Virus record (IMG/VR): IMGVR_UViG_3300028394_000324
Location: 1 to 23,132 of that record
Direction: 5' to 3' (one strand)
Source: a virus
Length of the DNA stretch: 23,132 bases
Below, one piece after another: positions 5,421 to 17,700 of this stretch; positions within the stretch are counted from its first letter, which is position 1; the number at the start of each line of letters is the position of its first letter. The notes under the pieces are model-generated. The model worked only from the letters and a program-made list of their open reading frames with translations. It had not been told where the DNA came from and did no database searches. Position numbers and translations under genes: made by a program.

Positions 5421-6389
5421 ATGACTCAACCGATTGACATTATTACCCGCGCAATGAAAGACATTGGCGCTGTTGCCGCCGGTGAAGTGCCAACTGCTGA
5501 CGAAGCACAAGACGGTTTAGATATGCTCAACGATATGTTGGCGCAATGGTCTAATGAAAACATGATGGTTTTTTATCGGACGGAATTAATTTTTAAAACC
5601 GTCCAAAACACCGTTCAATACACTCTTGGCCCTGGCGGTTCGGTAGGCGCTACTTTTGTAGGTTCTATTTCCGGCAACACCTTGACCGTCACAAGCATTA
5701 GCTATGGTGGCATCACAATGGGCATGACCCTTTCCGGCACGGGCATTACGCCTGGAACAACTATTGTTGGATTTGAAACGGGCGCTGGCGGTAACGTTAA
5801 CGAAGCGGGTACTTATACCGTTAGTGTTTTCCAAACGGTAGCAAGCACCACGGTTAGTGCCTATTACGAACGTCCACTAAGCATTGAATCGGCTTTTGTG
5901 CGGGTTGCAACTACGCAAGGCGGGTCTAACATTGCCGGTGGATATTTGGACTATCCCGTGGCAATTCTTAGCCTTGAAGAATACGAATCATTGGGGATTA
6001 AACAATTGAATGGCCCTTGGGCCAAGATGATTTACTATATGCCCGCCGAAACACTTGGCACGGTATATGTGTTTCCCAACCCATCACAAGGCGAATTGCA
6101 TTTATTTACACAAACAATTTTTAGGCAATATCAAAGCATAAACGACACGATCAATTTGCCGCAAGGTTACAACATGGCGTTGCGTTGGTGTCTTGCCGAA
6201 CGACTAATGCCCATGTTTGGTAAGTCTAGCCAAACTCAAATTGCGTTGATTACTAGCTATGCGGCACAAGCCAAGTCTACGATTAAACGCACCAATATGC
6301 GTCCCGCGCAAGTTGCACGTTATCCCGATGCATTAATGATGGGAAAAGCCAAAGATGCCGGTTTTATCATGGACGGCGGCTTCCGTTAA
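5421..6389 (+). CDS. Head-to-tail adaptor, P22 gp4-like, with an inserted beta domain
   Basis: 322 residues against 166 for P22 gp4. Residues 1-74 begin IDIITRAMKDIGAVAAGEVP and continue through DEAQDGLDMLNDMLAQWSNE, and the frame resumes at about 149 with RPLSIESAFVRV; both parts fit the gp4 tail-accessory family. In the related proteins I recall, GPGG is followed within a few residues by the RP.IESAFVR motif, so residues about 75-148 are an insertion. It reads as a Gly/Thr beta module (GSISGNTLTVTSIS, GMTLSGTGITPGTTI, GTYTVSVFQTVASTT). The rest (LSLEEYESLGIKQL, NLPQGYNMALRWCLAERL) is the usual C-terminal part. gp4 binds the portal after packaging and starts tail assembly. ATG at 5421 follows AAAGGAA. 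Confidence 0.9.
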   Translation: MTQPIDIITRAMKDIGAVAAGEVPTADEAQDGLDMLNDMLAQWSNENMMVFYRTELIFKTVQNTVQYTLGPGGSVGATFVGSISGNTLTVTSISYGGITMGMTLSGTGITPGTTIVGFETGAGGNVNEAGTYTVSVFQTVASTTVSAYYERPLSIESAFVRVATTQGGSNIAGGYLDYPVAILSLEEYESLGIKQLNGPWAKMIYYMPAETLGTVYVFPNPSQGELHLFTQTIFRQYQSINDTINLPQGYNMALRWCLAERLMPMFGKSSQTQIALITSYAAQAKSTIKRTNMRPAQVARYPDALMMGKAKDAGFIMDGGFR

Positions 6390-6399
6390 AGGATAAAAA

Positions 6400-7875
6400 A
6401 TGCCTGATTTTGGCTTTGTCGGTGCTTCCTACGAAGCCCCATCTATTTATCAAGACGCACAAGAATGTATCAATTTCTTTTGCGAAATTGACCCTACGAA
6501 ACAACCAGGTGCGCGGGGCGTTGTTGCTATGTATCCAACGCCAGGGTTGGTAAATATTGCCCAACTTAACGTAAATGAAGTGCGCGGTTTGCATACTTTG
6601 TCAAATGAAGATTACATGATTGCGGTATCGGGTTCAACTGTTTACAAGATTGATAAAACATACACCGCAACCGTAATTGGAACATTAGTAACCGGCGCGG
6701 GGCAAGTGTCCATATCGGACAATGTGACTAGCAATGGAATGACAGCGTATATTGTGGATGGCGTAAATCGTTATACATGGGTGGAATCCACAAACACGTT
6801 TACTACGTTGCCAAATAGCGATGGCCCGTGGCAAGGTGCAAACGTTGTTGATTCCGTGGACGGTTACAACATTTACAACCAGCCTGGAACGTTTAATTGG
6901 GCTTGTACCGACCTAAGTTCTAGTTTGTCAACACAAGCCCTTTATGGGTCTGCTAATGGCTTTCCCGACAACATTACGGGTTTAATTGTTGACCGCCGCC
7001 AAGTCTATGTGCTTAAAGACGTAACAACGGAAGTTTGGACGGACATTGGTAATGTGATTTCGGGGATTACAACGTTCCCATTTGCCCGTGTCCCTGGCAC
7101 AACCGTCCAAGGCGGCTGTGGTGCAACATTTTCTGTGGCCCGTTTTGGAAGTTCTTTTGCTTTGGTTTGCAAGGACACTAGGGGCGATTCAACCATTGAA
7201 GCAATGGTTAATTACGATTACAAAAAGTTTTCTACCCATGCGGTTGAACAATCAATCACCAATTATGTGACTAGCGATGCAATAGCTTATACATACCAAA
7301 TTGAAGGTCACGAAATGTATGTGGTGACTTTTCCTAGTGTTGGCGATTATGGATTGACTTGGGTTTACGATGGATCAACACAACAATGGCACAAATGGCT
7401 GTCTTGGGATTCTGATGCCGCCATTTACAAACGTCATCGGTCAAATTGCGGATGTTTTTTTAACAATGAATATATCGTAGGCGATTACGAAAACGGCAAA
7501 ATATACATGATAAAAAATGATGTATATACAGAAGATGGCGCGGTAATTCGCCGTATGCGCCGTGCGCCACATTTGACAACGGATTTAGAACGCCAATATT
7601 TTGAATCTTTTCAAATTCAGTTTCAACCAGGCGTTGGGCTTAATACAGGTCAAGGCAAAGACCCACAAGCTATGTTGCGTTGGTCTAATGATGGCGGTAG
7701 CACTTGGTCAAATGAACATTGGGTAACTATTGGTCAAATAGGTCAATACGCTAACCGTGCGCTTTGGCGGCGTTTGGGGTGGTCGCGTGATAGGATTTTT
7801 GAAGTTGTAATAACCGATCCGGTTAAAGCCGTTATTGTGTCCGCTGAATTAAAAGCAAGCGTAGGTGAAAATTAA
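6400..7875 (+). CDS. Packaged-DNA stabilisation protein / tail hub, P22 gp10-like
   Basis: 491 residues, near the P22 gp10 length of 472. The N-terminus (PDFGFVGASYEAPSIYQDAQ followed by ECINFFCEID) is typical of this family, as is the block around DYGLTWVYDGSTQQWHKW with the SDAAIYKRHRSNC run after it. The many short strands suggest a beta-propeller-like hub. In P22, gp10 binds below gp4, plugs the portal channel and offers a surface for tailspike attachment. It follows the gp4-like gene by ten bases with an AAAGGA site. Its stop overlaps the next start (TAATG), so fibre translation may be coupled to it. Confidence 0.92.
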   Translation: MPDFGFVGASYEAPSIYQDAQECINFFCEIDPTKQPGARGVVAMYPTPGLVNIAQLNVNEVRGLHTLSNEDYMIAVSGSTVYKIDKTYTATVIGTLVTGAGQVSISDNVTSNGMTAYIVDGVNRYTWVESTNTFTTLPNSDGPWQGANVVDSVDGYNIYNQPGTFNWACTDLSSSLSTQALYGSANGFPDNITGLIVDRRQVYVLKDVTTEVWTDIGNVISGITTFPFARVPGTTVQGGCGATFSVARFGSSFALVCKDTRGDSTIEAMVNYDYKKFSTHAVEQSITNYVTSDAIAYTYQIEGHEMYVVTFPSVGDYGLTWVYDGSTQQWHKWLSWDSDAAIYKRHRSNCGCFFNNEYIVGDYENGKIYMIKNDVYTEDGAVIRRMRRAPHLTTDLERQYFESFQIQFQPGVGLNTGQGKDPQAMLRWSNDGGSTWSNEHWVTIGQIGQYANRALWRRLGWSRDRIFEVVITDPVKAVIVSAELKASVGEN

Positions 7876-10732: not shown

Positions 10733-12058
10733 ATGGCAACTTTAATTCCAAAATTTGACGTAAAGAACGGCGGGGCAACGCCCGCTGGTGCGATCAACAG
10801 GCCGCTTAACGAAAAACTTTCAGATGTTATTTCTGTTAAAGATTTTGGCGCAAAAGGTGACGGGTCAACAAATGACCAGCCAGCAATTCAAGCGGCTATC
10901 GCATACGCACAAACATTTTCTGTTAAAACCATATTTTTTCCTATTGGAAATTATTACGTAACTTCAGGGCTTGTGTTTACGTCTACTGTGGGGATTGATT
11001 GTGCAAGCGGCACTTTTATTACAGCTTCCGCAAATACATTTACAGTTGTAACTTTAGCGCCTGTAAATTATGCAAACACCATATTAAATATACCGTCTAT
11101 TGTTGGTGGCTCTATTGGTTTGTATATCTATGGAACTTCGTTAGCACAAATATTTATAGCAAATATTGCTAACTCTACAAATGCTTTGGTTTTAGCTGTT
11201 GACAACACAAATAAAGTTTGCGCCGACAACACTATTAATTTCACCGCCATCAATGGAAATGCTGAAGCGGCTATTAAGTTTGCGTATAACGCTACAACTA
11301 CTAGCGGTGTGTTAATGCAAGGAAACCAAATCAAAGGTAATTTTATTACTTCGTCAAAATATAGCGTTTATTTTTATGATGTAAACAATGGGAGCCTTGG
11401 CGCTAATCTTGCTTGGGATGATACTTGCGTCGATGTATTTGCAATTGACCCCGCAAATTTAGCTGGTTCAATTGGTTTTTATGCAAACTCAACTTTCCCC
11501 GCAGGAAGAACCTTTTTGTATGCAAAAGGTTTTTTTGACGCAATGGATGATGCGTATATTAAAGGCGCTTGTAGTAATAACCCAATATTTGTTATTTCTA
11601 ATTCAGGGCAATGGGATTACACAAAATTTAAGCAAACAGGTGCGGCAAGAATTATTAACGCATCAAGTAAACAAGGTAATTTGCCTGGCGTTAACCCTAT
11701 CCCAACAATGACAACAACGTATAACACGTTAGCTACGTTTAATAGCGGCGTGCCGTTGCAGTCAAATCGGACTATTTTGCAATTTACCATTGTCACACCT
11801 TTGGTATCGGGGGATGGATTGGGGTTTTATTTTTACCATATGCTAATGTCGCAATATAAACCCAAAGTAACCGCAGAGCCACTTTGGGAAGTGCCAATGT
11901 ATGTTCAAGCGTGCTGCGAAGCCAGCACCCCAGGGTTGCCTGGCCCTGGTAGTGCTAACCCGTATCCATTTCAAGGCATTTTGGTAGTGCGGGCAACTGG
12001 CGCTGTTGCCGCAGGAACATACCAAATTGCTATCACCGTTGAAGATGTAACTCAATAA
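10733..12058 (+). CDS. Tailspike with pectate-lyase-type beta-helix
   Basis: 441 residues. The N-terminal part (about residues 32-57, VISVKDFGAKGDGSTNDQ followed by PAIQAAI) is the standard opening of the Pectate_lyase_3 family, in which the chain enters a right-handed parallel beta-helix. Residues about 60-310 are strand-rich with many Asn, Ile and Thr, as expected for beta-helix rungs. The C-terminal 120 residues differ in style (LLSGDGLGFYFYH-like strands, paired Cys-Cys, a Pro/Gly stretch) and may be a separate trimerisation or binding domain. Such spikes bind and often cut capsular or O-antigen polysaccharide. Catalytic residues cannot be assigned by eye. There is no long N-terminal anchor, so attachment may need a partner. 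The ribosome binding site (GAAAGA) is weak. Confidence 0.85.
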   Translation: MATLIPKFDVKNGGATPAGAINRPLNEKLSDVISVKDFGAKGDGSTNDQPAIQAAIAYAQTFSVKTIFFPIGNYYVTSGLVFTSTVGIDCASGTFITASANTFTVVTLAPVNYANTILNIPSIVGGSIGLYIYGTSLAQIFIANIANSTNALVLAVDNTNKVCADNTINFTAINGNAEAAIKFAYNATTTSGVLMQGNQIKGNFITSSKYSVYFYDVNNGSLGANLAWDDTCVDVFAIDPANLAGSIGFYANSTFPAGRTFLYAKGFFDAMDDAYIKGACSNNPIFVISNSGQWDYTKFKQTGAARIINASSKQGNLPGVNPIPTMTTTYNTLATFNSGVPLQSNRTILQFTIVTPLVSGDGLGFYFYHMLMSQYKPKVTAEPLWEVPMYVQACCEASTPGLPGPGSANPYPFQGILVVRATGAVAAGTYQIAITVEDVTQ

Positions 12059-12180: not shown

Positions 12181-12687
12181 ATGGCTGTCAATCTTTCGCC
12201 CGTTGGCGGTGCTGCCGCGCAATTTTTTGACAACAATGGTCAAGTGTTGACTGGCGGCAAACTTTACACATATGCTGCCGGTACTTCAACCCCAGCAGCT
12301 ACTTACACTACTAATGCGGGAAATATTGCACATACAAATCCAATCATATTAAATTCCGCAGGGCGTGTGCCTACAAGTGGCGAAATTTGGTTAACTTCAG
12401 GAATTAATTTTAAATTTATACTGCAAGATCAAAATGGAAATCAAATTTTATCTGTTGATAATCTTACGGGCCTTGCTACTTCTGGTCAAGCCGGTAATGT
12501 AACTGCAACCCAAGGGCAAACCGTTGTAACGGTTCCGTTCACATACTTAGTCGGCCAAAATTCGTTAAGGGTTTTTGTCAATGGAAGCAAACAAATTGTT
12601 ACTACAAACTACACCGAGACTTCGACTACCAGCATTACGTTTACTGGCGGGTTAAATGTAGGTGATTTAGTTGAATTTGTTCAATAA
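12181..12687 (+). CDS. Stand-alone tailspike anchor-like protein
   Basis: 168 residues. Residues 1-97 run through AAAQFFDNNGQVLTGGKLYT, TPAATYTTNAGNIAHTNPII and then LNSAGRVP, followed by IWLTSGINFKFILQDQNGN. This is the widespread head-binding or anchoring module seen at the N-terminus of many tailspikes and fibres. Residues 104-168 form a second small beta module (VTATQGQTVVTVPF ... LRVFVNGSKQIVTTNYT). No receptor-binding or catalytic part follows. It could be a free adaptor bringing another spike to the tail, or a spike that lost its distal domain. ATG at 12181 lies two bases after the previous stop. Confidence 0.8.
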   Translation: MAVNLSPVGGAAAQFFDNNGQVLTGGKLYTYAAGTSTPAATYTTNAGNIAHTNPIILNSAGRVPTSGEIWLTSGINFKFILQDQNGNQILSVDNLTGLATSGQAGNVTATQGQTVVTVPFTYLVGQNSLRVFVNGSKQIVTTNYTETSTTSITFTGGLNVGDLVEFVQ

Positions 12688-12718: not shown

Positions 12719-13081
12719 GTGAACCACGCCGAAATATTTAAAGCCCATGAAGGGCAATTTGATGCCGATTTAGGTACAGAGCATCATTTTTCAGATGGTC
12801 TTTATGCCAAGCGGATGCGTATTCCCGCAGGATTTGTAGCGGGAACCCATGTTCACAATTACAGTCATTTAAGCATTCTTGCTAAAGGACGGGTCATTGT
12901 GCGGACGGATGATGGTGCAAAAGAATACACCGCACCGGCTTGTTTGGAAATAAAATCGGGCATTCTTCATACGATTGAAGCCTTGGAAAACTGTGAATGG
13001 TTTTGCATTCATGCAACTGAAGAAACCGATGCAACCAAAATTGACGAAGTTTTGATTCGAAAGGAAACATCATGCCAATAG
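12719..13081 (+). CDS. Cupin-fold protein with a four-histidine metal site
   Basis: 120 residues, a single cupin domain. Motif 1 is visible as GTHVHNYSHLSILAKGRV (residues 42-59): His44, His46 and, at the usual Glu position, His50, followed after six residues by Gly57. Motif 2 is in the region KSGILHTIEALENCEW, with His84 as fourth ligand. This gives a four-His site rather than the common three-His-one-Glu. Cupins can be dioxygenases, isomerases or sugar binders; nothing fixes the substrate. GTG at 12719 is the only upstream start in frame, because a stop lies two codons before it, and it has no Shine-Dalgarno site, only an A-rich leader. It overlaps the next gene by ten bases. Confidence 0.82.
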   Translation: MNHAEIFKAHEGQFDADLGTEHHFSDGLYAKRMRIPAGFVAGTHVHNYSHLSILAKGRVIVRTDDGAKEYTAPACLEIKSGILHTIEALENCEWFCIHATEETDATKIDEVLIRKETSCQ

Positions 13082-13776
13082 CATGGGCTTTAGGCGGTAG
13101 CGCATTATTGGGCTTCTTAGGTTCGCAAAACCAAGCTAGTGCGGCAAGGTCTGCCGCCGATTTGCAAGCGCAAGCGGCACAAAGGGCGCAAGACCAGCAA
13201 ATGCAGATGTTTACCACGTTGAACGAACAGCAAAAGCCGTATCGTGAAGCTGGCTACAGCGCATTAGGAAAAATTGGGGAAATGCTTCCGCAGTTTACCC
13301 GTATGCCTACGGAACAAGATTTGTTGTCTATTCCTGGCATTAAATTTGGACTTGAACAAGGGCTTGGTGCTACAAGTCAGGGAATGAATGTTTCTAGTCC
13401 AGGCTCCAACGTTGACATGGCTCGAACAAAGTTTGCAACCGATTACGGTATCAGCACGGCTTTACCGGCTTATCGTAATATGCAAACCGACATTTACAAC
13501 CGTTTATCAAGTCTTGCCGGTATAGGTCAAACCGCACAAGGTTCGGCACAAGCGTTAGGAAGTCAAACCGCCGCAAACATTGGGCAACTTGGCATTGGTG
13601 GTGCAAGCGCACTTGGCGCGGGGCAAATTAATGCGGCTAACGCAATGGCTGGTGGTGCTGGAAACATTGGCAATGCTGGATTTTTGTATTCAATGTTAAA
13701 TAAACCTTTAGCAACGGCAACGGCAACACCAACTACTAATAATCCGTATGTTTATGGGCAATCTAATGTTACTTAA
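13072..13776 (+). CDS. Putative DNA ejection protein, P22 gp7-like in size and position
   Basis: 234 residues (P22 gp7 has 229). Residues 1-20 (MPIAWALGGSALLGFLGSQN) are hydrophobic and glycine-rich. They are followed by a helix rich in Ala and Gln (about 20-60), a central Pro-containing part, and a Gly/Ala/Asn-rich C-terminus (about 155-205). Small Ala/Gly-rich proteins of this form, first of a set of three in increasing size, are typical virion DNA-transfer proteins that leave the capsid before the genome. The call is from layout and composition, not from a recognised motif. The start overlaps the cupin gene and has GAAACATC before the ATG. Confidence 0.7.
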   Translation: MPIAWALGGSALLGFLGSQNQASAARSAADLQAQAAQRAQDQQMQMFTTLNEQQKPYREAGYSALGKIGEMLPQFTRMPTEQDLLSIPGIKFGLEQGLGATSQGMNVSSPGSNVDMARTKFATDYGISTALPAYRNMQTDIYNRLSSLAGIGQTAQGSAQALGSQTAANIGQLGIGGASALGAGQINAANAMAGGAGNIGNAGFLYSMLNKPLATATATPTTNNPYVYGQSNVT

Positions 13777-13785
13777 AGGTTGAAT

Positions 13786-15348
13786 ATGGCTGATTTTTCT
13801 TTTCCCCAATTACCAGCAGTAACACCGCCCCCGCAAACTTCACTTGCGGACATGATGGGCATTGCCCGTGGAGCGCAAGCCTATCAGCAAGCCGAACAAA
13901 TAAATCCTTTGGAATTGCAAGCTAAAGAATTGGCGCTTAGACAAGCACAACAAATTAATCCTTTGGCTTTGGAACAACAACAATCCGCAACGCAAACCGC
14001 CCAACAAGCCGCCGCGACCGGCGGCATTAATTTAAACATATTAAAACAAAAAGATTTAGAACGCCAAAATTTGCAAACGTTTTTTTCAGACCCTGGAAAT
14101 TTTCAAACCGATGGTCGCATAGACATTAACAAAATCAATAAAGTTGTTCCTACGCTTGCGCCTTTAACCGGTTCCGATTACGTTAAAAATCTTAGCGATT
14201 TAAGCACGGCACAAACGGCAGCGGAAAAAGCATCAATGGGTTTGACGCAAGACGACCGCCAATTGGTTTCTTCCGCGCTTGGCATTGTTGGTCGCGCTGG
14301 TGTTCAAGACCCGCAAATCGTTATTAATGAAATGCGGATGCTAGTTGACCAAAATCCTAACAACAAACATTTAAAAAGTTTGGTTGAAAATGCTTATGTA
14401 CCTATTTTTTCTAAGATGCAGCCAGGTGCGAACGTTGCGGATGCATCGATTAAAGCTAGTCAATCTATTTTGACACCAGTACAACAACAAACAACATTTG
14501 CTCCAACTACCGCCGTTACAACGGAAAACCGTGTAGTTACTACAACGCCTTCTGTTGGTGCTGGTGCGCCAAGTGTTTCTATCTCTACCGCTGGCGGTTT
14601 GCAAGGTGGTGCGCCTAGTGCTAATGCGCCCGTTCCTGCCGGTACGGAAGTCGCTCCTGGTATGCGTGTTCCTTATCCCGTGCGTAGTGCGGCGCAACCT
14701 TTTATTGCCGAACCAACGGAAGCTAAAGACCAAGCTGCCGGTGCGGAATACCGAAACAACCTTGTCAATGGTCAAATGGGTTTATCACAAGCTAAACGAA
14801 ATGTTCAAGAAGTAATGGATACAGCTAACAAAATCGGAAGCGATTTGTATTTTGCTAAAGGCGGTATACCTGGTCAAATTGAACAAAAAATTCGCATGGC
14901 TATTGGAAGTGAACAATACGATATGCTTGCTAAAGACTTGGCAAACATGGCTATTACCAATTCCAAAGCAATGGGTTCGGTTGGTGGCACGGTTGCCGGT
15001 TTAGATATGGCTGCGGTAGCTAACGGAACAATTAAAGTGCCGCCTGATGTTTTGACAAAAATTGCCCGCAGGGTTCAAGCCGATCAAACCAACCTTGATA
15101 TGCAAGCCAATGGTGCACAACAATTTGCCCAAAAGTTTGGCGACAACAACATGAAGGCTTATCAACAAGCCTGGAACGCCAACGCCGATAGCAAGATTTT
15201 TGAAGCCATGAACATTACACGGGACGTAACCGACCCCGCTAGACTAAAAACGGAATTAAACAAGTTATTTCCTAATCCTAATGACTATCAAGACTTTCTA
15301 AAGAAATATCGGAACATTAAAAAATTATCCGAAACAGGGAGTTTGTAA
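13786..15348 (+). CDS. Putative DNA ejection protein, P22 gp20-like in size and position
   Basis: 520 residues from ATG at 13786, chosen over an in-frame TTG two codons earlier because AAAGG (13775-13779) is correctly spaced for the ATG. P22 gp20 has 471 residues. Residues about 25-95 are a Gln/Ala-rich helical segment with two copies of a QINPL.L motif. A Thr/Pro/Val/Ala-rich low-complexity linker spans about 232-300. The last 200 residues are helical and charged. No enzymatic motif was seen. Second of three ejection candidates; it abuts the third (stop TAA then ATG directly). Confidence 0.7.
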   Translation: MADFSFPQLPAVTPPPQTSLADMMGIARGAQAYQQAEQINPLELQAKELALRQAQQINPLALEQQQSATQTAQQAAATGGINLNILKQKDLERQNLQTFFSDPGNFQTDGRIDINKINKVVPTLAPLTGSDYVKNLSDLSTAQTAAEKASMGLTQDDRQLVSSALGIVGRAGVQDPQIVINEMRMLVDQNPNNKHLKSLVENAYVPIFSKMQPGANVADASIKASQSILTPVQQQTTFAPTTAVTTENRVVTTTPSVGAGAPSVSISTAGGLQGGAPSANAPVPAGTEVAPGMRVPYPVRSAAQPFIAEPTEAKDQAAGAEYRNNLVNGQMGLSQAKRNVQEVMDTANKIGSDLYFAKGGIPGQIEQKIRMAIGSEQYDMLAKDLANMAITNSKAMGSVGGTVAGLDMAAVANGTIKVPPDVLTKIARRVQADQTNLDMQANGAQQFAQKFGDNNMKAYQQAWNANADSKIFEAMNITRDVTDPARLKTELNKLFPNPNDYQDFLKKYRNIKKLSETGSL

Positions 15349-17700
15349 ATGGATGCTTTAGAACAATTCCTTGGTGGTGAGCAAGCTAGTCCAACCAAAT
15401 GGACGGGTGCAACTTTATCCACGCAAAAACTAAAGCAATTGCAAGATGCTGCCAATGCTGGCGATGCAACGGCAAAAGATGTATTACGCGCTTATAGTCA
15501 AGCTGCACCTGCCGCAACGCCAACCGCAGCGACCGCACAACCCGCAGCGCCAACAGCAGCCGATCCGTTAGAAGCATTTTTGTCGGGTCAAGCGCCAGCA
15601 GCACAAGCCGCGCAACCAAGCACAACAGGCACAAAAGAAGGCACGATGGGCGCTTTTGTGCCAAGAACAAAACAAATTTTAGACAAAGTTCTTGGTGGAA
15701 AAATAAGCCAAGCGGATGCTATAAATTTGTCAACCACAATTCCTGCTGAAGCCGAATCCGATTTGCGACCTTTGTATGAAGTTCCAAGGTCTATTGCTCA
15801 AAACCTTTTGGCATCCGCTGCAAGTGGATATGGTGCAATTGCAAAAGGCATTCAAACGGGTTCATTAGAACAGGCCGGTGCGGTTCAAAAAGAAATTCAA
15901 CAAAAATATGGTTATGAACCAAGTTCACCCATATCTAAACAAGTTTTGTCTTTGTTGAATTTGCCAATGGAATACGTTGTTCAACCGGCGGCTAAATTTG
16001 CTGGTGACATTACCCAATCCGTTACCGGTTCGCCTACGGCTGGCGGTGTGGTTGCCGGTGCAGTAGAAACCGCGCCTATGCTTTTAGGTTTGCGTAAAGG
16101 TGGGGCTGTAGCAGAACCAGGCATAACCACAAAAATAAGCCCATTAGACCGGCAAAAAGCCGCGATGACGGACACAAGTTTGCCGCCATCGGTTCGTGCA
16201 ACTATTGCGGAAAAAACCGCCAAGGGTGAAGTAATGACACCCGAACAAATACAAGCAACACAAGCACAATTTGAGGCTAGTAAACCGCAATTAATAAAGC
16301 CACAAGTTACAACGCCGGAAGCAACATTTGCGGCGGTAGCCGGTCAACAAGAAGCGCAAAGAAAAAGTGTTGGTGCGGCGGCTGTCCCTGATGCAACAAC
16401 AATTGAGCAAGCGTTGTCGGTTGCTACGCCAGAATTACGCAAAGCATTGCAAGGCAAAAATTTAGACACTTCATTTATTAGGCACATTGAAGCGGATAGT
16501 TTAGATATACCCGTTCGTTTGACTGAAGGCCAAGCAACTGGCGACATTATTAAAATTTCAAATGAACAAAATCGCAGGGGTAAAGACCCCGAATTGGCAT
16601 TGCGTTTTAATGAACAAAACGGTCAATTGATTGAGAATATTAATTCTATTCGTGCAAAAGCTGCGCCTGATGTTTATGGCACTAAAACTATTGAAAACAG
16701 TCAAGGCATTATTGATTCTTATAAAACAATAGATGCTAATTTAAATGAAGGAATTAACGTTAAATATAAAGCTTTGCGTGATGCTGCTGGCGGTCAGTTT
16801 CCTGTTGATGCGCCTAAATTATTGCAAAACATTGAAAGTAAATTGCAAAAAGAATTGCTTTCTAATGAAGCGCCAAAAGGTCAATTTAGCGAACTTCAAA
16901 GATTAGCTAAAGACAATAACATGACGTTTGAGGATTATTTGTCTCTTAGGCGCAATTTGGGCGACATAGCGCGAACAGCAAAAGATGGCGCGGAGCGTAA
17001 AGCGGCATCGTACATGATTGAAGAATTAGAAAAATTACCTTTGCAAGAAAGTGCTAAACGCTTAAAACCTTTAGCAGATCAAGCAAGAAAAGCCGCCCGT
17101 GATCGTTTCCAAATGCTTGAAAAAGACCCTGCTATGAAAGCGGCGGTAGATGATACTGTTCCTGCGGATAAGTTTATTGATAAATTTGTAATTAATGGGG
17201 TCAATAAAAACATCAACACAATGGTGCAACATCTTGGCAAAGATTCGGCAGCGCATCAACACATGGCGGCTGGAACAATTAATTGGTTGCGTGATAAAGC
17301 TGGTGTGATTGATGAAAATAGCAATTTTTCACAAAAGCAATACAACTCTGCTTTAAAAAAATTAGATGATGTAAATAATTTGCATGAAATATTTAATCCA
17401 GAAGCGGCAAGCAAATTAAAAACTTTGGGCAATGTTGCAAATTACACGCAATTCCAACCCCGTGGAACGTTTGTAAACAACTCTAATACTTTGGTTGGTG
17501 CAATGGCGCAAGCCGCAAGAAATGCGGTTGGAAAAACCGTTGAAGGCGGTTTAAATGTAGCTGTACCAGGTGTGCAACTTGGCACATCTTTGATGGAAAT
17601 GAGAGCAAGAAGGGCCGCAGAAGCTGAAACCCGCAAGGCTTTAGAAATTGGCGCTGGCACTCAAAAAGGTAAAAACAAACTTCAAGACTTGGGCAAATAA
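15349..17700 (+). CDS. Putative large DNA ejection protein, P22 gp16-like in size and position
   Basis: 783 residues (P22 gp16 has 609). The N-terminal 110 residues are Ala/Pro/Gln-rich and contain two similar short motifs, DALEQFLGGEQA and DPLEAFLSGQAP, which look like a duplicated docking peptide. Residues about 150-260 include moderately hydrophobic Gly/Ala segments that could enter a membrane. The C-terminal half (about 340-730) is long, charged and helical. No lytic transglycosylase or lysozyme motif was visible, unlike some internal virion proteins. It would be the third ejection component. ATG follows the previous stop directly; the last base of its stop is the first base of the next start. 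Confidence 0.7.
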   Translation: MDALEQFLGGEQASPTKWTGATLSTQKLKQLQDAANAGDATAKDVLRAYSQAAPAATPTAATAQPAAPTAADPLEAFLSGQAPAAQAAQPSTTGTKEGTMGAFVPRTKQILDKVLGGKISQADAINLSTTIPAEAESDLRPLYEVPRSIAQNLLASAASGYGAIAKGIQTGSLEQAGAVQKEIQQKYGYEPSSPISKQVLSLLNLPMEYVVQPAAKFAGDITQSVTGSPTAGGVVAGAVETAPMLLGLRKGGAVAEPGITTKISPLDRQKAAMTDTSLPPSVRATIAEKTAKGEVMTPEQIQATQAQFEASKPQLIKPQVTTPEATFAAVAGQQEAQRKSVGAAAVPDATTIEQALSVATPELRKALQGKNLDTSFIRHIEADSLDIPVRLTEGQATGDIIKISNEQNRRGKDPELALRFNEQNGQLIENINSIRAKAAPDVYGTKTIENSQGIIDSYKTIDANLNEGINVKYKALRDAAGGQFPVDAPKLLQNIESKLQKELLSNEAPKGQFSELQRLAKDNNMTFEDYLSLRRNLGDIARTAKDGAERKAASYMIEELEKLPLQESAKRLKPLADQARKAARDRFQMLEKDPAMKAAVDDTVPADKFIDKFVINGVNKNINTMVQHLGKDSAAHQHMAAGTINWLRDKAGVIDENSNFSQKQYNSALKKLDDVNNLHEIFNPEAASKLKTLGNVANYTQFQPRGTFVNNSNTLVGAMAQAARNAVGKTVEGGLNVAVPGVQLGTSLMEMRARRAAEAETRKALEIGAGTQKGKNKLQDLGK

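Follow-up and report, generated by a model that had tools for sequence, protein, structure and literature searches.

The window analyzed here is the whole of a 23,132-base IMG/VR virus record from a freshwater phage, and it carries a late gene block of the P22 type. Portal, scaffold, coat, gp4-like, gp10-like Hc3, fibre, and spike genes occur in that order, followed by an open reading frame (ORF) at 12181–12687, a cupin gene, a gp7-like ejection gene, and two large genes that take the places of gp20 and gp16; the features from Hc3 to the gp16-position gene detailed below lie on the + strand. The gp10-like head closure protein Hc3 (6400–7875) matches phrog_578 (4e-99), and the pectate-lyase-like tail spike (10733–12058) matches PF12708 (8e-12). 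Upstream of the cupin gene, 12181–12687 encodes a 168-amino acid protein that is probably a tail appendage by position and matches phrog_26190, a family of unknown function (6e-10). The cupin gene itself (12719–13081) begins with GTG, and its 120-amino acid product occupies the position of P22 gene 14. Its stop overlaps the start of the gp7-like DNA ejection gene (13072–13776; phrog_598, 1.2e-18) by 10 bases. The ejection proteins at the gp20 position (13786–15348) and the gp16 position (15349–17700) were assigned from gene order; the former has a weak PHROG match of unknown function, and a PHROG search with the latter returned no match. For the gp20-position ORF, ATG 13786, with AAGG ahead of it, is a more probable start than TTG 13780. 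Elsewhere in the block, residues 74–148 of the gp4-like adaptor (5421–6389) match the tail-fibre family PHROG 38233, an unusual insertion for a head-tail adaptor.

The reading frame and coordinates of ORF 12719–13081 check out, and we confirmed that it is a real, strongly conserved cupin. An HxHxxxH motif spans 12848–12868 (H44, 12848–12850; H46, 12854–12856; H50, 12866–12868), and H84 (12968–12970) supplies the fourth putative metal ligand. Further histidines occur at positions 3, 10, 22, 23, and 98, and the codons of C96 and H98, residues invariant in the four-His group, fall within 13004–13012. The original prediction of a four-His cupin between tail and ejection genes was therefore accurate in both residues and location. 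Relatives were found in 49 phage records and 52 IMG/VR loci, and later scans raised the number to several hundred. Given a dN/dS of 0.06–0.08 against eight relatives, the gene is under strong purifying selection; the frame is kept in close relatives.

The leader of the cupin gene had been singled out as different from those of its neighbors. For the window allele the description is right (GTG start, 97% A+T, no Shine-Dalgarno site), and L001 and L002, whose proteins are 99% identical, carry the same leader; as a family trait it fails. Several relatives at 85–90% identity have GGA or GGGGG ahead of a GTG or TTG start, and L003, L004, L006, and L007 have AAGGA- or GGGGG-type sites ahead of GTG or TTG. 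Because relatives have normal Shine-Dalgarno-type sites, the window leader is most likely a recent local change in this lineage, and we rejected it as a mark of foreign origin.

Sequence and structure comparisons agree on the fold. The window protein as a single sequence matches Pfam Cupin_2 at E = 1.1e-5, with 25.5 bits against a gathering cut-off of 27.2; the four-His relatives L042, L044, and L076 pass that cut-off. It matches three related PHROG families (24280, 12032, and 34170), with E-values of 5.6e-23 for 24280 and 5.9e-22 for 12032, and it shares the placement typical of 24280 and 12032 cupins, preceding whichever ejection protein or internal virion protein comes first. An NCBIfam search gave no match, and a PDB search with the single sequence yielded nothing significant, so that a profile search was needed; the profile matched CelOCE best (1.9e-7) and quercetin dioxygenase at 3.6e-6. 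AlphaFold2, supplied with a 24-sequence alignment, predicted a cupin barrel with a mean pLDDT of 84.5 and values above 90 across most of the core. The structure search against known cupins, run with Foldseek and VIA-align, lists cupin-fold PDB matches for this model: HP0902 (5j4g; Z 12.6, rmsd 2.7 over 88 residues), CelOCE (Z 11.3, rmsd 2.7 over 95 residues), and TM1459 (Z 11.0, rmsd 2.1 over 89 residues), with the small cupins KdgF and DddK also among the nearest folds. Model and matches together indicate the double-stranded beta-helix barrel of cupins.

The four histidines correspond to a characterized metal site. In TM1459 of Thermotoga maritima, manganese is bound by H52, H54, H58, and H92, and F104 and C106 line the metal cavity (PMC5031596). 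A four-His profile built from diverse members aligned to the TM1459 variant 8awo without gaps (27–87 onto 40–100), placing H44, H46, H50, and H84 on H52, H54, H58, and H92, respectively. The window cupin thus has the HxHxxxH motif and distal His of a TM1459-type site at TM1459 spacing, which bears out the earlier remark that His replaces the usual Glu ligand. The gap-free match to a solved four-His site also serves as an equivalent of the proposed check on whether the four histidines converge, and its outcome favors convergence. C96 and H98 are spaced from the ligands exactly as F104 and C106 are in TM1459. By this analogy, the phage cupin very probably binds one divalent transition metal through H44, H46, H50, and H84, and it would probably do so as a dimer.

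Across the family, the site exists in two states. Our set comprised 198 distinct proteins from 235 loci in phages, IMG/VR, and bacterial genomes. The four-His state accounts for 105 proteins (130 loci), and the R/K state, in which residue 84 is R or K and residue 44 is mostly K, for the other 93 (105 loci). H84 without the other three histidines was found in none of the 198 proteins. In an unrooted tree built without the four ligand columns, a single branch with support of 100 separates the two groups. The R/K group retains H46 (98%) and H98 (88%). Within the four-His group, with the divergent Mallos protein left out, S52, G57, W94, C96, and H98 are invariant as well, so the pocket is kept beyond its ligands. 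Cupin enzymes in general use these His ligands, which makes loss in the R/K group the likelier direction on the unrooted tree. Since both groups hold the same genomic slot, the metal is dispensable for the basic role of that slot; since the site is kept without exception in the four-His clade, it matters there for function or stability. A single genome scan for cellular four-His homologues, with patterns strict enough that cellular relatives may have escaped it, retrieved four loci; three are four-His, and the neighborhoods of all four are phage-like by ORF layout. Some R/K cupins carry C-terminal extensions: L056 (7890–8765) has a weak SET-domain match (0.015), and L071 (3947–4708) bears a GenBank label referring to a histone methyltransferase structure.

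The genomic position of the cupin is conserved as well. P22 genes are ordered 26-14-7-20-16, and the window cupin, directly ahead of the gp7-like gene, fills the gene-14 slot. Whether the gene keeps this position in related phages had been posed as a check. A tightly packed downstream ORF, defined as one starting -80 to +60 bases from the cupin stop, is present in 219 of 225 loci; in each of the 24 close relatives that leave room for one after the cupin, this ORF is gp7-like. A custom gp7 profile recognized 146 of 229 downstream neighbors; when ten unrecognized neighbors were compared with PHROGs, four matched internal virion proteins. In P22-like phages the cupin precedes a gp7-like protein; in Krylovirinae-type phages it is flanked by tail tube B and the internal virion proteins, and in the zobellvirid T4S1 the internal proteins come after it. 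The slot is not absolute, given that a four-His relative sits in the early region of the Xanthomonas phage Mallos and an R/K relative lies upstream of the head-tail adaptor in Alteromonas phage H4/4. The slot gene is absent from phiKMV, which is accordingly unusable as a source of virion mass spectrometry for the family. The cupin is an established phage family at the gene-14 slot and no intruder.

Enzyme-like cupins had been regarded as foreign to the P22 virion plan, a view that finds no support once P22 gp14 itself is modeled. The AlphaFold2 prediction for this protein (DUF2824, PF11039; L072 8911–9366; pLDDT 83.3) is a GNAT (acetyltransferase) fold, matching GNATs with a Foldseek E-value of 1.8e-9 and a VIA Z of 16.7 (rmsd 2.3, 146 residues aligned). 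Enzyme-like folds therefore belong in the gene-14 slot. Inspected by eye, the P22 protein appears degenerate in its acetyl-CoA loop region. Profile comparison of P22 gp14 with phage GNATs detected no homology, the alignments being too shallow. Databases label P22 gp14 as "head morphogenesis" or "virion stability factor"; our search of the open-access literature found no paper defining the function of gene 14, and one "gp14" paper concerned another gene.

Other podophages swap GNAT, cupin, and hydroxylase genes for one another at this slot or carry them together. The zobellvirid Vibrio phage 1.264.O has a GNAT where its relative T4S1 carries the cupin. In the diversity-generating Bordetella phage BPP-1, a GNAT overlaps by a few bases an R/K-type cupin that has lost its histidines (bbp24-bbp23, L404 4962–5881), and a weakly gp7-like gene follows; bbp23 is labeled a short tail fiber protein. 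PfAn1 has the order hydroxylase-GNAT-gp7, and ctXG1253 has a hydroxylase directly ahead of a gp7-like gene. Of the 130 four-His loci, 28 have a PF05118-like Asp/Asn hydroxylase gene that directly adjoins the cupin on one side or the other (e.g., L190 3785–4405, L074 6309–6845, L076 5450–6019, and L230 3781–4350); none of the 105 R/K loci does. The Fisher value of 1.5e-8 ignores kinship among loci and, as these are not independent, overstates the link; hydroxylase presence changed about 10 times along the cupin tree. The hydroxylases mostly keep the HxD...H pattern, which is partly altered in a few, such as that of L203. Most four-His loci have no adjacent hydroxylase, and a six-frame check of the window revealed none. 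One record, from Limnohabitans phage DC33 (L320, PQ492659), is a 39-kb genome with a hydroxylase, a GNAT, and a 567-amino acid portal-sized gene; it is filed under Inoviridae, a taxonomy line that looks wrong.

Taken together, these observations are best read as describing a phage-specific cupin in the gene-14 slot that serves as a metal-binding morphogenesis accessory of the ejection proteins, a reading we hold with about even confidence. The protein would act during assembly. Its most likely target is the gp7-like product of the adjacent gene, which it would either modify or assist in folding or stability; we put the chances of such an accessory role at roughly one in two. Fold and place alone would suffice for the basic role, as suggested by the R/K cupins and the degenerate-looking GNAT of P22. 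In the four-His clade, the metal would additionally let the cupin act on a protein in the manner of an oxygenase or peroxygenase. We advance this catalytic step only tentatively. It would have the putative cupin oxygenase sometimes teamed with a 2OG-Fe hydroxylase, the R/K relatives doing the basic job metal-free. The repeated pairing of the cupin with a 2OG-Fe oxygenase makes oxidative protein modification an attractive candidate. A broader and more speculative proposal, which we think unlikely, is that the podophage slot is an exchangeable protein-modification module (GNAT, metal cupin, or Asp/Asn hydroxylase, singly or combined) that modifies ejection proteins during assembly, with P22 gp14 as one form.

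Part of the evidence also suits a structural metal, with the slot protein acting as a scaffold or chaperone whose barrel is just stabilized by the four-His site in this clade. R/K proteins occupy the same slot without the site, and P22 gp14 has a degenerate-looking acetyl-CoA loop; yet C96, H98, and S52, beyond the ligands, are invariant too, and only four-His loci show the hydroxylase link. We regard a purely structural metal as possible, if somewhat improbable. An enzyme of the RmlC, KdgF, or dioxygenase kind, altering host or phage glycans or metabolites, would fit the nearest folds, small cupins that include KdgF and DddK, and the profile matches to CelOCE and quercetin dioxygenase. Such a role is hard to square with a place by the ejection genes that stays fixed across phages infecting many different hosts, with R/K relatives that hold this place lacking the site, and with neighborhoods in which sugar-metabolism genes were not seen next to the cupin; it strikes us as decidedly unlikely.

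Database annotation points instead to the tail tip of the virion, where the cupin would serve as a short tail fibre or adhesin and bind a receptor sugar. PHROG 24280 is named "tail fiber adhesin" and 12032 "short tail fiber protein," GenBank labels of this type appear in VPMS1, VvAW1, and others, the Shewanella phage X14 product is named "putative structural protein," and the gene ahead of the cupin is often a tail appendage. Receptor-binding tips usually diversify, however, whereas the cupin sequence is strongly conserved; its 120 amino acids show neither a trimerizing fibre nor an attachment domain, and the window has separate fibre and spike genes upstream. One paper also refers to an RmlC-like cupin of Ralstonia phage phiAP1 as a "short tail fiber" and states that this assignment was not validated (PMC8703784). 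The labels apparently derive from sequence similarity, as we found no supporting experiment in the open-access literature, and we consider a fibre role unlikely. Late host takeover, raised in the original prediction, or a moron gene has the least going for it: other phages have small cupins, and the Mallos relative is located in an early region, but the tightly packed, fixed position in the virion block at nearly all loci makes such a role very improbable.

The cupin family was already present in PHROGs, and four-His cupins were known from TM1459. As far as the open-access literature shows, four findings appear to be new: that the metal site is all-or-none across the family, that the cupin occupies the gene-14 slot, that P22 gp14 is predicted to have a GNAT fold, and that hydroxylase genes are linked to four-His loci only. 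If our reading is true, the small pre-ejection gene of podophages encodes an enzyme-fold accessory and no tail fibre, with different phages having adopted different solutions: a GNAT in P22, a cupin in the window, and a hydroxylase elsewhere. It would also argue against the "short tail fiber" label spreading through databases for this family. How P22 gene 14, and perhaps also T7 gene 13, serves the ejection proteins would become testable, and modifications on gp7, gp20, and gp16 would be the place to look. The variety of enzyme-like slot proteins hints at an unrecognized helper step in building the DNA-injection apparatus.

Comparison with known systems sets the window cupin apart from each of its nearest counterparts. 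The manganese cupin TM1459 (1VJ2/5WSD) shares its fold and the spacing of all four ligands; TM1459 is nonetheless a bacterial protein of low identity, whereas the phage cupin has its own N-terminal HHFSDGLYAK motif and a viral context. CelOCE (9BWF), a copper cupin that oxidizes cellulose (PMC13353379), is likewise a small jelly-roll barrel, but it has Gln at the third HxHxxxH position; all four-His phage proteins have His there, which departs from the CelOCE-type HxHxxxQ...H copper site. The PHROG 24280/12032/34170 proteins ("tail fiber adhesin," "short tail fiber protein") form a homologous family in the same genomic slot, and the R/K-group members examined differ in lacking the four-His site, with R or K at 84 and K or other residues at 44. 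P22 gp14 has the slot, a similar size, and the place ahead of gp7 in common with the window cupin, but homology to DUF2824 is ruled out by the difference between the predicted cupin and GNAT folds, leaving position alone as shared. T7 gp13 (PF11090) occupies a matching slot ahead of the gp14 core protein, although its Pfam and PHROG families are distinct from those of the cupin.
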